Shown: piece by piece, positions 53,215-57,110 of the stretch | How the letters are laid out: the number at the start of each line of letters is the position of its first letter | Numbering within the stretch: position 1 is the stretch's first letter | Assembly: GCF_030651915.1 (NCBI RefSeq) | Contig: NZ_JAUSBV010000002.1 | Location: forward strand, 200,414-264,413 | DNA length: 64,000 nt | Direction of reading: 5' to 3' | Source of the DNA: Parvibaculum sp. | Lineage (GTDB): Bacteria > Pseudomonadota > Alphaproteobacteria > Parvibaculales > Parvibaculaceae | The notes under the pieces: model-generated | Databases searched by the model: none | What the model was told of the DNA's origin: nothing | Seen by the model: the letters and a program-made list of their open reading frames with translations, nothing else | Translations under genes and position numbers: made by a program

Positions 53215-53230
53215 ATCAAGAGGCATGCCA
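53215..53230 (-). promoter_or_regulatory. Sigma-54-like promoter for amt copy 1
   Basis: On the minus strand TGGCATGCCTCTTGAT matches the -24/-12 pattern TGGCAC-N5-TTGCW with two mismatches. It shares the CTTGAT end with the glnK promoter and lies 99 bp from the amt1 start. Confidence 0.6.
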
Positions 53231-53412
53231 TCGCCATGCTGCTTTGAAGGGCAGCTTCAATCAAGGACTTAGCATGATGCGGGTGGCCGGTAGCGCGCGA
53301 CAGCGCCTAGCGATTGACCACGCTTCATAGGCAATGGGCCTAAATATTATGCAGATAATGAGAATGATAGGAAATGCTGGACAGGCACGATGTGCGGTCC
53401 GTCGGCTCGGGC

Positions 53413-53449
53413 AAAAATGGAGCCCGGCAGGGGGGACCTACCGGGCTCC
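53413..53449 (-). terminator. Rho-independent terminator after amt copy 2
   Basis: On the minus strand GGAGCCCGG pairs with CCGGGCTCC, with four more pairs inside (one G-U), and is followed by five T residues. It lies 105 bp downstream of the amt2 stop. The gap 53117-53553 otherwise holds the amt1 promoter region. Confidence 0.88.
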
Positions 53450-53553
53450 TAGGTTCGCCGCCGACGCCCCGGTTTGGTGGCAGAGGGCGCCGGCGGCTGC
53501 GGGAGGAGAGCGGCGGCCCGAGGGGGAGGCCGCCGCGCCCATGTGCCGAACGT

Positions 53554-54897
53554 CTAGTTGGTCACGAACTCGGGATAGGCCTCGATACCGATCTCGGCCT
53601 TGTCCATGCCCATATGTTCCTCTTCCTCGCTGGCGCGGATGCCGATGGTGACGCGCAGCGCCAGCCAGAGCACAAGACTTGTCAGCGCGACGAAGAGACC
53701 GATCGAGACGACGCCCGTCGCCTGAATGGCGAAGCTCGTGTCCGCATTGGTCAGCGGCACGGCCATCGTGCCCCAGATGCCGGCGAAGAGATGGACCGGA
53801 ATGGCACCCACCACGTCGTCGATATGGAGCTTGTCGAGGAGCGGCACCGTCAGCACGACGATGACGCCGCCGATGGCGCCGATGCCGAGCGCCCAGCCGA
53901 GCGTCGGCGTCAGCGGTTCGGCGGTGATCGAGACGAGACCGGCAAGCGCGCCGTTCAACGCCATGGTGATGTCGACCTTCTTGTAGAGAAGCTGCGTCAG
54001 CGCCATCGCCGCCACCACACCGCCGGCGGCGGCCATGTTGGTGTTGATGAAGATGGTCGCCACCGCGTTTGCGTCCGCAATGGTGCCCAGCGCAAGCTGC
54101 GAGGCGCCGTTGAAGCCGAACCAGCCCAGCCAGAGAATGAAGGTGCCAAGCGTCGCCAGCGGCATCGAGGAACCAGGCATCGGATTGATGCCTCCGCCCT
54201 TGATGTATTTGCCGAGGCGCGGACCGAGGATGATCGCGCCCATCAGCGCGGCCCAGCCGCCCGTCGAGTGAACGATCGTCGAACCGGCGAAGTCGGAGAA
54301 GCCCATTTCGCTGAGCCAGCCACCGCCCCACTGCCAGGAACCCTGGATCGGGTAGATGAACCCGGTCAGGAAAACCGTGAAGAGGAGGAAGGGCCAGAGC
54401 CGAATGCGCTCGGCCAGCGTGCCCGAGACGATCGATGCGGCGGTCGCCACGAAGACCATCTGGAAGTACCAGTCGGAGGCCGAGGAATAACCGGTGCCGT
54501 CTTCGGCGACGCCACCCGAATCGTCGACACCCCAGAGACCCAGCGAGCCGATATAGCCGCCATCGACGCCGTCATACATCAGGTTGTAGCCGACAAGGTA
54601 GTAGAGGATGCCGGCGATCGAGTAGAGGCTGATGTTCTTGGTGCATTGCATGGCGACGTTTTTCGAACGTACCAGGCCGGCTTCGAGCATGGTGAAGCCC
54701 GCCGCCATCCACATAACGAGGAAGCCGCCGATCAGAAACAGCAGCGTGTTGAAAATATACGCCGTTTCCGGTGCGCTCAGTTCGAACGCCTCTTCCGCGA
54801 TCTCCTCGACTTCCTGTGCCATCGACGGCACGGTCATTGCCAGTATCGCGAGCCCTGCCATACCTGCCAGGCGTGTGTATCTTCCTACTTTGGTCAT
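53554..54897 (-). CDS. amtB: Ammonium transporter (Amt family), copy 2
   Basis: A 447-residue Amt protein with a signal-like N-terminus (YTRLAGMAGLAILAMTVPSMAQEVEEIAEEAFELSAPETAYIFNTLLFLIGGFLVMWMAAGFTMLEAGLVRSKN). The pore blocks are DFAGSTIVHSTGGWAALMGAIILGPRLGKY and AIPVHLFAGIWGTMAVP. The C-tail is IGIRASEEEEHMGMDKAEIGIEAYPEFVTN. It lies 65 bp downstream of glnK, the classical glnK-amtB pair, and shares its promoter. In this arrangement GlnK blocks the channel when nitrogen is plentiful. Confidence 0.94.
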   Translation of the reverse strand: MTKVGRYTRLAGMAGLAILAMTVPSMAQEVEEIAEEAFELSAPETAYIFNTLLFLIGGFLVMWMAAGFTMLEAGLVRSKNVAMQCTKNISLYSIAGILYYLVGYNLMYDGVDGGYIGSLGLWGVDDSGGVAEDGTGYSSASDWYFQMVFVATAASIVSGTLAERIRLWPFLLFTVFLTGFIYPIQGSWQWGGGWLSEMGFSDFAGSTIVHSTGGWAALMGAIILGPRLGKYIKGGGINPMPGSSMPLATLGTFILWLGWFGFNGASQLALGTIADANAVATIFINTNMAAAGGVVAAMALTQLLYKKVDITMALNGALAGLVSITAEPLTPTLGWALGIGAIGGVIVVLTVPLLDKLHIDDVVGAIPVHLFAGIWGTMAVPLTNADTSFAIQATGVVSIGLFVALTSLVLWLALRVTIGIRASEEEEHMGMDKAEIGIEAYPEFVTN

Positions 54898-54962
54898 CGT
54901 TCCTCTCTCATTAGAGGGTTACCGTCCCCGTTACCGCGAAACTTATTCGATCCGTATAGGGA

Positions 54963-55301
54963 TTAAATCGCTTCCCCGTCCGTCTCGCCGGTGCGAATAC
55001 GCAGCACCTGCTCCACGGAAAGCACAAAAATCTTGCCGTCGCCGATCTGACCGGTCTTGGCAGCGCCGCTGATGGCGGACACGACCGCATCGGCCTGTCC
55101 GGTAGCGACCACAATCTCGATCTTCAGCTTGGGCAGAAAGTTCACCGCATATTCAGCGCCGCGGTAAATTTCGGTCTGACCCTTCTGACGGCCGTAGCCT
55201 TTGACTTCCGTCACTGTCAGGCCCTGGACTCCGATCGCGGTCAGCGCTTCGCGAACCTCATCCAGCTTGAATGGCTTGATGATCGCCATAACGAGCTTCA
55301 T
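54963..55301 (-). CDS. glnK: Nitrogen regulatory protein P-II (GlnK/GlnB)
   Basis: A 112-residue trimeric PII signal protein. [51 protein letters not shown] carries the uridylylation Tyr51 in the T-loop. The B- and C-loop segments [26 protein letters not shown] complete it. It senses 2-oxoglutarate, ATP and ADP, and gates AmtB. The ATG at 55301 fits the universal family start. It is preceded by a sigma-54-like promoter (55419-55434) and an NtrC-type site (55528-55544). The amtB-linked position favours GlnK over GlnB. Confidence 0.96.
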
Positions 55302-55544: not shown

Positions 55545-55601
55545 GTGTGTTTCCTTGACGGTCAGCCCACGGATCGATCCGACCAAGGCGTCTGCGCATA
55601 C

Positions 55602-55628
55602 AAAAAGGGCGCTCCTTGCGGAACGCCC
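55602..55628 (-). terminator. Rho-independent terminator of amt copy 3
   Basis: On the minus strand GGGCGTTCC pairs with GGAGCGCCC around GCAA (one G-U pair), followed by five T residues. It lies 24 bp beyond the amt3 stop, separating amt3 from glnK. Confidence 0.9.
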
Positions 55629-55651
55629 TTTCCGTCGCGGAGAGGCGCGAC

Positions 55652-56989
55652 TTATTGGATGACTTCGCCGTGCTGGCTGATGTCCAGGCCGTCGACTTCC
55701 TCCTGCGGCGTTACGCGCAGGCCGAAGAAGATCTTCGTCACCATCAGCAGGACGAAGGTGCCGAGGCCGCAATAGACGATTGTCGCAATAACACCCTTGA
55801 TCTGGATGCCGACCTGGGCCCAGTTGCCCTCGAGGCCGCCCAGCGGCGTGTCGCCGCCGGTGATCGCCACGGTGGCGAAGACGCCGGTCAGGATCGCGCC
55901 GACAATGCCGCCGACCGCGTGGACGCCGAAGACGTCGAGCGCGTCGTCATAGCCGATCGCCCGCTTGATGCTGGTCGAGGCGATGAAGCAGATCACGCCC
56001 GAGGCAAGGCCGATCCAGAGCGCGCCCATCGGATCGACGAAGCCGGCCGCCGGTGTGATTGCGACGAGACCGGCAATGGCGCCGGTGGCGAGGCCGAGCA
56101 GCGTCGGCTTCCGGTGGACGATCCACTCGGCAAACATCCAGCCGAGCACGGCCGTTGCGGTCGCGATCTGCGTCACTGCCATCGCCATACCGGCGCGGCC
56201 GTCGGCGGCGAGTTGCGAGCCGGCGTTGAAGCCGAACCAGCCGACCCAGAGCAGCGCGGCACCGACCATCGTCAGCACGACATTGTGTGGGGCCATGTTT
56301 TCCATACCGAAACCCTTGCGAGGGCCGAGCACGAGACAGGCGACGAGACCGGCGATGCCAGCATTGATGTGCACCACCGTGCCGCCGGCGAAATCGAGCA
56401 CGCCGTCCTCGGCAAGGAAGCCGCCGCCCCAGACCCAGTGGCAGATCGGTGCATAGATGAAGATCACCCACAGCGTCATGAAGACCAGCATGCTGGAAAA
56501 CTTCATGCGGTCGGCGAAGGCGCCGACGATCAGCGCCGGCGTGATGATCGCAAAGGTCATCTGAAACGTCATGAAGACGCTTTCGGGGATCGTGCCCGTC
56601 AGCGCATCGACGGTCAGACCCGACAGGAAAAGATTGTCGAGGCCGCCGACATAGGCGTTCATCGAACCGCCATCGCCAAAGGCCAAGGAGTAGCCGGCCA
56701 CCATCCAGACCACCGACATCAGCGCGGCGATCGCAAAGACCTGCGCTGCCATGGCGACAACGTTCTTCTTGCGGACCATGCCGCCGTAAAACAGCGCGAG
56801 GCCCGGGATGGTCATCAGCAGGACCAGCGCCGTGGCGGTCAGCATCCAGGCCGTGTCACCGGCGCTCAGCTCAACGACCTCCTCCTGGGCTATGGCGCTG
56901 CCGGTCATCGCGGCCAGCGCAAACGCGCCGGTGGCGGCGGCAAGCGCGCGCCGGCGGAGAAGCCCCTTTTTTTCAATTTTGTCGGTCAT
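55652..56989 (-). CDS. amt: Ammonium transporter (Amt family), copy 3
   Basis: A 445-residue Amt protein with a signal-like start (LLRRRALAAATGAFALAAMTGSAIAQEEVVELSAGDTAW) before the helices. MTIPGLALFYGGMVRKKNVVAM is the AmtB-type first helices, and the pore blocks are DFAGGTVVHINAGIAGLVACLVLGPRKG and DVFGVHAVGGIVGAILTGVFA. The C-tail ends GLRVTPQEEVDGLDISQHGEVIQ, close to E. coli AmtB. It has its own terminator and a sigma-54-like promoter at 57095-57110. Copies 1 and 2 are more distant relatives, so this is not a recent triplication. Confidence 0.94.
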   Translation of the reverse strand: MTDKIEKKGLLRRRALAAATGAFALAAMTGSAIAQEEVVELSAGDTAWMLTATALVLLMTIPGLALFYGGMVRKKNVVAMAAQVFAIAALMSVVWMVAGYSLAFGDGGSMNAYVGGLDNLFLSGLTVDALTGTIPESVFMTFQMTFAIITPALIVGAFADRMKFSSMLVFMTLWVIFIYAPICHWVWGGGFLAEDGVLDFAGGTVVHINAGIAGLVACLVLGPRKGFGMENMAPHNVVLTMVGAALLWVGWFGFNAGSQLAADGRAGMAMAVTQIATATAVLGWMFAEWIVHRKPTLLGLATGAIAGLVAITPAAGFVDPMGALWIGLASGVICFIASTSIKRAIGYDDALDVFGVHAVGGIVGAILTGVFATVAITGGDTPLGGLEGNWAQVGIQIKGVIATIVYCGLGTFVLLMVTKIFFGLRVTPQEEVDGLDISQHGEVIQ

Positions 56990-57094
56990 TCGTCTCTCCA
57001 TGTGCCGCCGGTGGGTCATGCCCCCGGCCTTGTTGCGCGCGGCGCGCCGTCCGTCTCCCCGGCGGGCGGTTTTCCGGCGCTTGGTGGCCTTGTT

Positions 57095-57110
57095 CTCAAG
57101 AAGCATGCCG
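57095..57110 (-). promoter_or_regulatory. Sigma-54-like promoter for amt copy 3
   Basis: On the minus strand CGGCATGCTTCTTGAG resembles the glnK and amt1 promoters. The leader would be about 95 nt, close to the other two. Its match to the general sigma-54 consensus is weaker (three mismatches). Confidence 0.5.

Follow-up and report, generated by a model that had tools for sequence, protein, structure and literature searches.

The ammonium transport cluster of Parvibaculum sp. (NCBI RefSeq assembly GCF_030651915.1, genome of 3.50 Mb) lies on the minus strand of a 64-kb window, which is the whole stretch analysed (64,000 nucleotides, contig NZ_JAUSBV010000002.1, positions 200,414 to 264,413). 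It comprises the PII gene glnK and the ammonium transporter genes amt1, amt2 and amt3. Three -24/-12 elements, upstream of amt1, glnK and amt3, are very probably sigma-54 (RpoN)/NtrC promoters belonging to a widespread alphaproteobacterial glnK set with A or T at -12, while the promoter of the paralogous PII gene glnB keeps C. Sequence comparison links the -12 variant to glnK and, within the genus, to its amt neighbours, and not to all NtrC targets. The elements are as follows.

53215..53230, minus strand: amt1 element, TGGCATG-CCTC-TTGAT (TGGCATGCCTCTTGAT), A at -12.
55419..55434, minus strand: glnK-amt2 element, CGGCACG-TTTC-TTGAT (CGGCACGTTTCTTGAT), A at -12.
57095..57110, minus strand: amt3 element, CGGCATG-CTTC-TTGAG (CGGCATGCTTCTTGAG), A at -12.

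The common pattern, found in 3/3, is YGGCAYG-N4-TTGA. The canonical sigma-54 consensus is TGGCACG-N4-TTGCW (PMC4999443, PMC13207237; this and all further papers are cited from the parts of their text that were available). The elements resemble it in GG at -24, within YGGCAY, in TTG, in the exact spacing from GG to the -12 dinucleotide and in the presence of upstream activator dyads, but depart from it at -13/-12, where G is kept and A stands instead of C in all three; they are therefore classed as variant. The preliminary description, which had proposed three sigma-54-like elements sharing GGCA-Y-G and a TTGA variant at -12, is borne out by their minus-strand positions, exact register and conservation in the genus. 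Each 16-mer is present in a single copy in the genome, and its end is 98 nt (amt1), 117 nt (glnK) or 105 nt (amt3) from the ATG, with 5' ends at -114, -133 and -121. Genome-wide, YGGCAYGN4TTGM gives 38 matches and the reversed control 10. A crude gene caller places 31 of the 38 within coding sequence and 7 in intergenic sequence, namely the three elements and loci L042, L062, L065 and L045, the last of which is really inside amt2. Three matches fall in the 450 nt upstream of the four genes against 0.0098 expected (Poisson P about 1.5e-7, in a test devised post hoc). Among the matches classed intergenic, L042 (TGGCACGGATATTGAT) is located 66 bp upstream of a gene for 195 amino acids. A similar TGGCGTG-N4-TTGAT before fliF is not found in 9 other genus loci examined and is attributed to chance.

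Conservation within the genus is stronger evidence for the elements than the chance calculation. The genus sample consists of 19 genomes, this one and 18 others. The cluster locus is available from 18 of them, own genome included; one contig begins inside glnK, and its glnK promoter and amt3 are outside the sequence. A search of the relatives' upstream regions, which the preliminary description had recommended for alignment, recovers the amt1 element in 18/18 loci, the glnK element in 17/17 loci with upstream sequence and the amt3 element in 17/17. At -12, A is present in 18/18 (amt1), 16 of 17 (glnK, the remaining one being G) and 17/17 (amt3). No change is seen in GGCA or TTG in any of the three sets and little in TTGA; the flanks have diverged. 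The distance of 94-118 bp given earlier agrees with the own genome, but similar spacing is not conserved in the genus: distances from element to start drift over 77-230 (amt1), 100-170 (glnK) and 72-108 (amt3), with start codons placed from tblastn matches, by extrapolation for matches beginning within the protein. Equal spacing thus fails as an argument for the elements. In 6/18 loci (L080-L084, L086) the sequence retrieved shows no amt2, while glnK with its element is kept; one of these six has G at glnK -12. Draft genome G009 carries glnK in two overlapping frames (L089:3165-3394), a frameshift or an assembly error. At the amt1 promoter, TT and GCA 3' of the -12 element (window 53209-53218, TTGATTNNGCA) are invariant in 18/18 genus loci, which exceeds the needs of a promoter consensus.

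NtrC-type dyads precede all three elements.

53337..53353, unstranded: dyad upstream of amt1, degenerate form, 8/8 core positions, starting 123 bp before the element.
55528..55544, unstranded: dyad TGCAC-N7-GTGCA upstream of glnK, without mismatch, starting 110 bp before the element.
57195..57211, unstranded: dyad upstream of amt3, degenerate form, 8/8 core positions, differing from the strict form by 3 mismatches, starting 101 bp before the element.

At 10/17 genus glnK loci, that of the window among them, the strict form TGCAC-N7-GTGCA occurs without mismatch, at a distance of 110-132 bp from the element. Degenerate dyads with all 8 core positions number 18 against 1.8 expected at glnK, 12 against 1.9 at amt1 and 12 against 1.6 at amt3 across the genus. 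Matches at 7 or more of the 8 positions cluster at -131/-132 and -110 (glnK), at -23, -123 and -132 (amt1) and at -130/-131 and -101/-102 (amt3). In 8/18 genus amt1 loci, near-matches abut the promoter some 23 bp upstream of the -24 element, a possible repressor position. The genome has a single rpoN, its product carrying all three Pfam domains complete. NtrC (TIGR01818, 716.6 bits, cut-off 558.6) and NtrX (777.9 bits, cut-off 600) are encoded; further NtrC-family proteins are FlbD and one additional NtrC-type regulator. The NtrC-type response regulator at L270:2132-3664 scores 430.3 bits, short of the NtrC cut-off of 558.6, and has no assigned targets. An altered RpoN was considered as the cause of the variant and dropped, with a single rpoN, full domains, the RpoN box ARRTVAKYRE (by eye) and C kept at glnB.

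Beyond the genus, glnK promoters were searched in 385 alphaproteobacterial genomes drawn evenly from the class, with families as the units of comparison. GGCAYG, TTG and the GlnK N-terminus were fixed, -12 was left free and three spacing ranges were used; reversed controls gave 0. The ranges yield 19 sites (14 A, 5 T), 23 sites (19 A, 3 T, 1 C) and 14 sites (11 A, 1 T, 2 G). The total is 56 sites in 56 genomes of 29 families, with 44 A, 9 T, 2 G and 1 C at -12; two of the sites are from the Parvibaculum genus, and both G sites are from its family. The remaining 329 genomes, with no such glnK, another spacing or a weaker site, are outside the count. The TTG requirement could hide sites such as GTGC; a rerun with GGCAYR-N5-TG at the short spacing range gives 26 sites (19 A, 3 T, 4 C), of which four are gained (one A, three C in family f12), one strict site being lost by the gap range. 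Named loci, the best 80 of a longer list with close GlnK, sorted by title, were read over 260 nt upstream with [TCA]TG allowed. In the 45 alphaproteobacterial loci (two labelled just Proteobacteria), -12 is A in 29, T in 4, G in 1 and C in 5, and six are without a site, one of these having 47 nt upstream. In the 35 loci outside the alphaproteobacteria, 12/12 sites have C and 23 loci have no site in the 260 nt. GANTC, a CcrM-type methylation site, falls at exactly -13 to -9 in 13/29 named alphaproteobacterial A-type sites (L121, L125, L128-L132, L135-L137, L142, L149, L158), the -12 A being the would-be methylated base.

The glnB promoter has C. In the genus, TGGCAYG-N4-[AG]TGCT precedes glnB in 18/18 loci, own genome included, with C at -12 in 18/18; the own site (L070) is 70 bp before the ATG. 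In a search of 62 genomes (GGCAYR-N5-TG, one spacing range, 51 without a match), C is present in 11/11 glnB sites, two of them from the genus. An NtrC-type dyad with 1 mismatch is located 148 bp before the glnB ATG; together with activation of glnBA by NtrC in Caulobacter (PMC10274813), it suggests that glnB is an NtrC target in Parvibaculum sp. A at -12 is thus not found at this other presumed NtrC target of the genome, and the variant is a signature neither of the NtrC regulon nor of the organism's sigma-54, because glnB has C in the same genome. The coherent NtrC regulon proposed earlier stands in so far as dyads, ntrC and three likely transcription units are present, but its variant -12 element is not regulon-wide. 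In 29 genomes, each from a different family, TGGCACG-N4-TTG-N-W gives 198 matches and its reversed control 98, and about half are therefore chance. Among the 150 matches listed, the 146 not recognised as glnK, which may include amt sites, have 83 C, 29 A, 18 T and 16 G. The contrast of C with other bases, 1/56 at glnK and 83/146 at these matches, gives Fisher P 6e-15, or P 2e-8 with glnK counted by family, in tests that ignore the remaining relatedness among genomes. In six named genomes, 71/74 TGGCACG-N4-TTGNW matches were examined; 55 are intergenic with a downstream gene (crude gene calls), with 35 C, 17 A, 2 T and 1 G. By eye, TTGA at -12 is also seen before nifH-like genes of two rhizobia, before a ferredoxin-like gene of Xanthobacter and before a gene of Rhizobium and Ensifer that has a common N-terminal sequence in both; these are loci L247, L259, L265, L222 and L252.

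Genes and terminator-like hairpins of the cluster, with protein families assigned by Pfam and NCBIfam, are the following.

51866..53116, minus strand: amt1, ammonium transporter (PF00909, 303.6 bits; TIGR00836, 318.4 bits, under the cut-off of 343.3).
53419..53449, minus strand: terminator-like hairpin of 13 pairs, 10 of them G-C, after amt2 and before the amt1 promoter.
53554..54897, minus strand: amt2, ammonium transporter of TIGR03644 type (622.4 bits), 3' of glnK.
54963..55301, minus strand: glnK, PII protein (PF00543, 110.2 bits).
55455..55471, minus strand: weaker terminator-like hairpin, after amt3 and before the glnK promoter.
55652..56989, minus strand: amt3, AmtB-like ammonium transporter (TIGR00836, 459.6 bits).

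Terminator-like hairpins in the region number 8 against 3.5 expected. With hairpins after amt2 and amt3, the transcription units are therefore likely to be three: amt3, glnK-amt2 and amt1. amt2 starts 65 bp after glnK, has no -24/-12 element of its own and is presumably transcribed from the glnK promoter. Divergent from amt3, a long open frame on the plus strand (57438-59645) resembles, by eye, a pyrroloquinoline quinone-type dehydrogenase carrying a cytochrome motif at its C-terminus. Neither the Rfam nor the tRNA scan gives a match in the window.

The identity of the amt1, glnK and amt3 elements as sigma-54/NtrC promoters is well supported by sequence; such promoters best account for the data given their register, their conservation, the upstream dyads and the reports on relatives. 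In Sinorhizobium/Ensifer and Bradyrhizobium (glnK) and in Caulobacter (glnK-amtB), the same gene and regulators are involved, with dependence on RpoN or NtrC. The RpoN motif of S. meliloti glnK is placed at the mapped start (PMC3616915), expression of glnK and amtB falls in rpoN mutants of Bradyrhizobium DOA9 (PMC13207237), and in Caulobacter NtrC binds at glnK and at the AmtB-type gene next to it and activates both (PMC10274813). Use of these promoters by RpoN and NtrC in Parvibaculum sp. is inferred on this basis. A is the -12 base of the glnK sites in Ensifer sp. BR816 (L123) and Bradyrhizobium sp. U87765 (L121); in B. pachyrhizi (L139) and one Caulobacterales metagenome-assembled genome (MAG; L182), no glnK site is present in the 260 nt upstream. 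Predicted glnB, glnII and urtABC sites of DOA9 end in C, in a search that may have required C (PMC13207237). The RpoNp motif of DOA9 (CGG ... CGC) is likewise a variant sigma-54 consensus in an alphaproteobacterium, but there the base before GC is changed, C is kept and the motif is tied to a second rpoN (PMC13207237), whereas the Parvibaculum genome has one. At E. coli activator-bypass sites, used by region-I-deleted sigma-54, C at -12 is likewise not strictly kept; those are eight low-level sites of a mutant sigma factor (PMC4551910), while the Parvibaculum promoters are presumably main targets of NtrC. Descriptions of individual glnK promoters very likely exist already. The -12 base as a shared glnK feature, or the contrast between glnK and glnB, is not described in the available text of the open-access literature searched (including PMC12316311 and PMC9611204).

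Several observations weigh against the proposed promoter set and its possible function. The strict dyad is present at 0/18 amt1 and 1/17 amt3 genus loci, the degenerate pattern was chosen after inspection of the sequences, and amt1 near-matches are commonest at -23, abutting the promoter rather than upstream of it. C at -12 of glnK occurs in three Sphingomonas, one Microvirga and one Reyranella MAG, all five sites reading TTGC, and in 4/26 sites of the looser pattern, all four in family f12. A at -12 extends beyond glnK and amt among the 17/55 intergenic A sites, which include five glnK and two nifH (by eye). The amtB gene of DOA9 is assigned a different, poor site, AGGGGTCCCGGCTGT (PMC13207237). 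Strong glnK induction in S. meliloti (PMC5596199) argues against much leak.

Under the proposed mechanism, NtrC would bind about 100-130 bp upstream and activate the three RpoN promoters, and amt3, glnK-amt2 and amt1 would be expressed independently of one another when nitrogen is limiting. A C at -12, which 96% of sigma-54 promoters have, is reported to help hold basal transcription down (PMC4551910), and an A-type promoter may therefore be less locked. It is weakly suggested, as a tentative possibility, that A at -12 loosens the lock holding the closed complex silent, with glnK and amt opening at less phosphorylated NtrC (NtrC-P) or leaking slightly and glnB remaining locked. It is about equally conceivable, though again doubtful, that the letter is neutral and merely inherited, any base being tolerated given a strong -24 and TTG. 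A is indeed second commonest at other sigma-54-like sites (29/146 against 83 C among the matches listed, chance matches included), but neutrality is at odds with the rarity of C at glnK (1/56 in 29 families, against 83/146), with divergence of the genus flanks and not of -12, and with retention of C at glnB.

A rather unlikely alternative is that A lowers closed-complex affinity, glnK and amt needing more NtrC-P and showing a late onset and a tighter switch; departure from consensus usually weakens binding, which counts for it. The strong induction of S. meliloti glnK also agrees with a tighter switch (PMC5596199), while the -12 work quoted in PMC4551910 points to lost silencing. For part of the Hyphomicrobiales, retention of A as the target base of the GANTC methyltransferase CcrM, by which glnK would be linked to the cell cycle, is improbable: the 13/29 named sites with GANTC on -13 to -9 belong to related organisms, GANTC is absent from the 17 genus glnK sites, and it is present in 4/44 A sites of the even sample (G384, G150, G019, G081), near the 1 in 16 expected. 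Least credible of all is a reading of TTGA as a sigma-70 -35-like hexamer or as one half of an FNR/FixK site. TTGATT and TTGAGA resemble TTGACA, but a consensus scan of the minus strand over 53100-57400 gives no sigma-70-like site, the FNR partner half ATCAA is not present after TTGAT-N4 at the three sites, and GGCA at a fixed distance is conserved as strongly as TTGA.

The -12 base might conceivably serve as an alphaproteobacterial promoter code that splits the PII genes, glnB being locked (C) and glnK and amt unlocked (A or T). For glnK, the code held in 28/29 families sampled. If the code is true, one NtrC and one sigma factor would give different basal levels or thresholds for two PII sensors. 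Most of the sampled alphaproteobacterial glnK promoters would escape motif scans in which GC at -12 is required. The C at -12 is viewed as belonging to the lock by which sigma-54 promoters stay silent when no activator is present. The set with A at -12 is retained across much of a bacterial class, and a natural promoter set without the -12 C, paired with a paralogous C promoter in the same cells, would offer a direct in vivo test of the function of that base.

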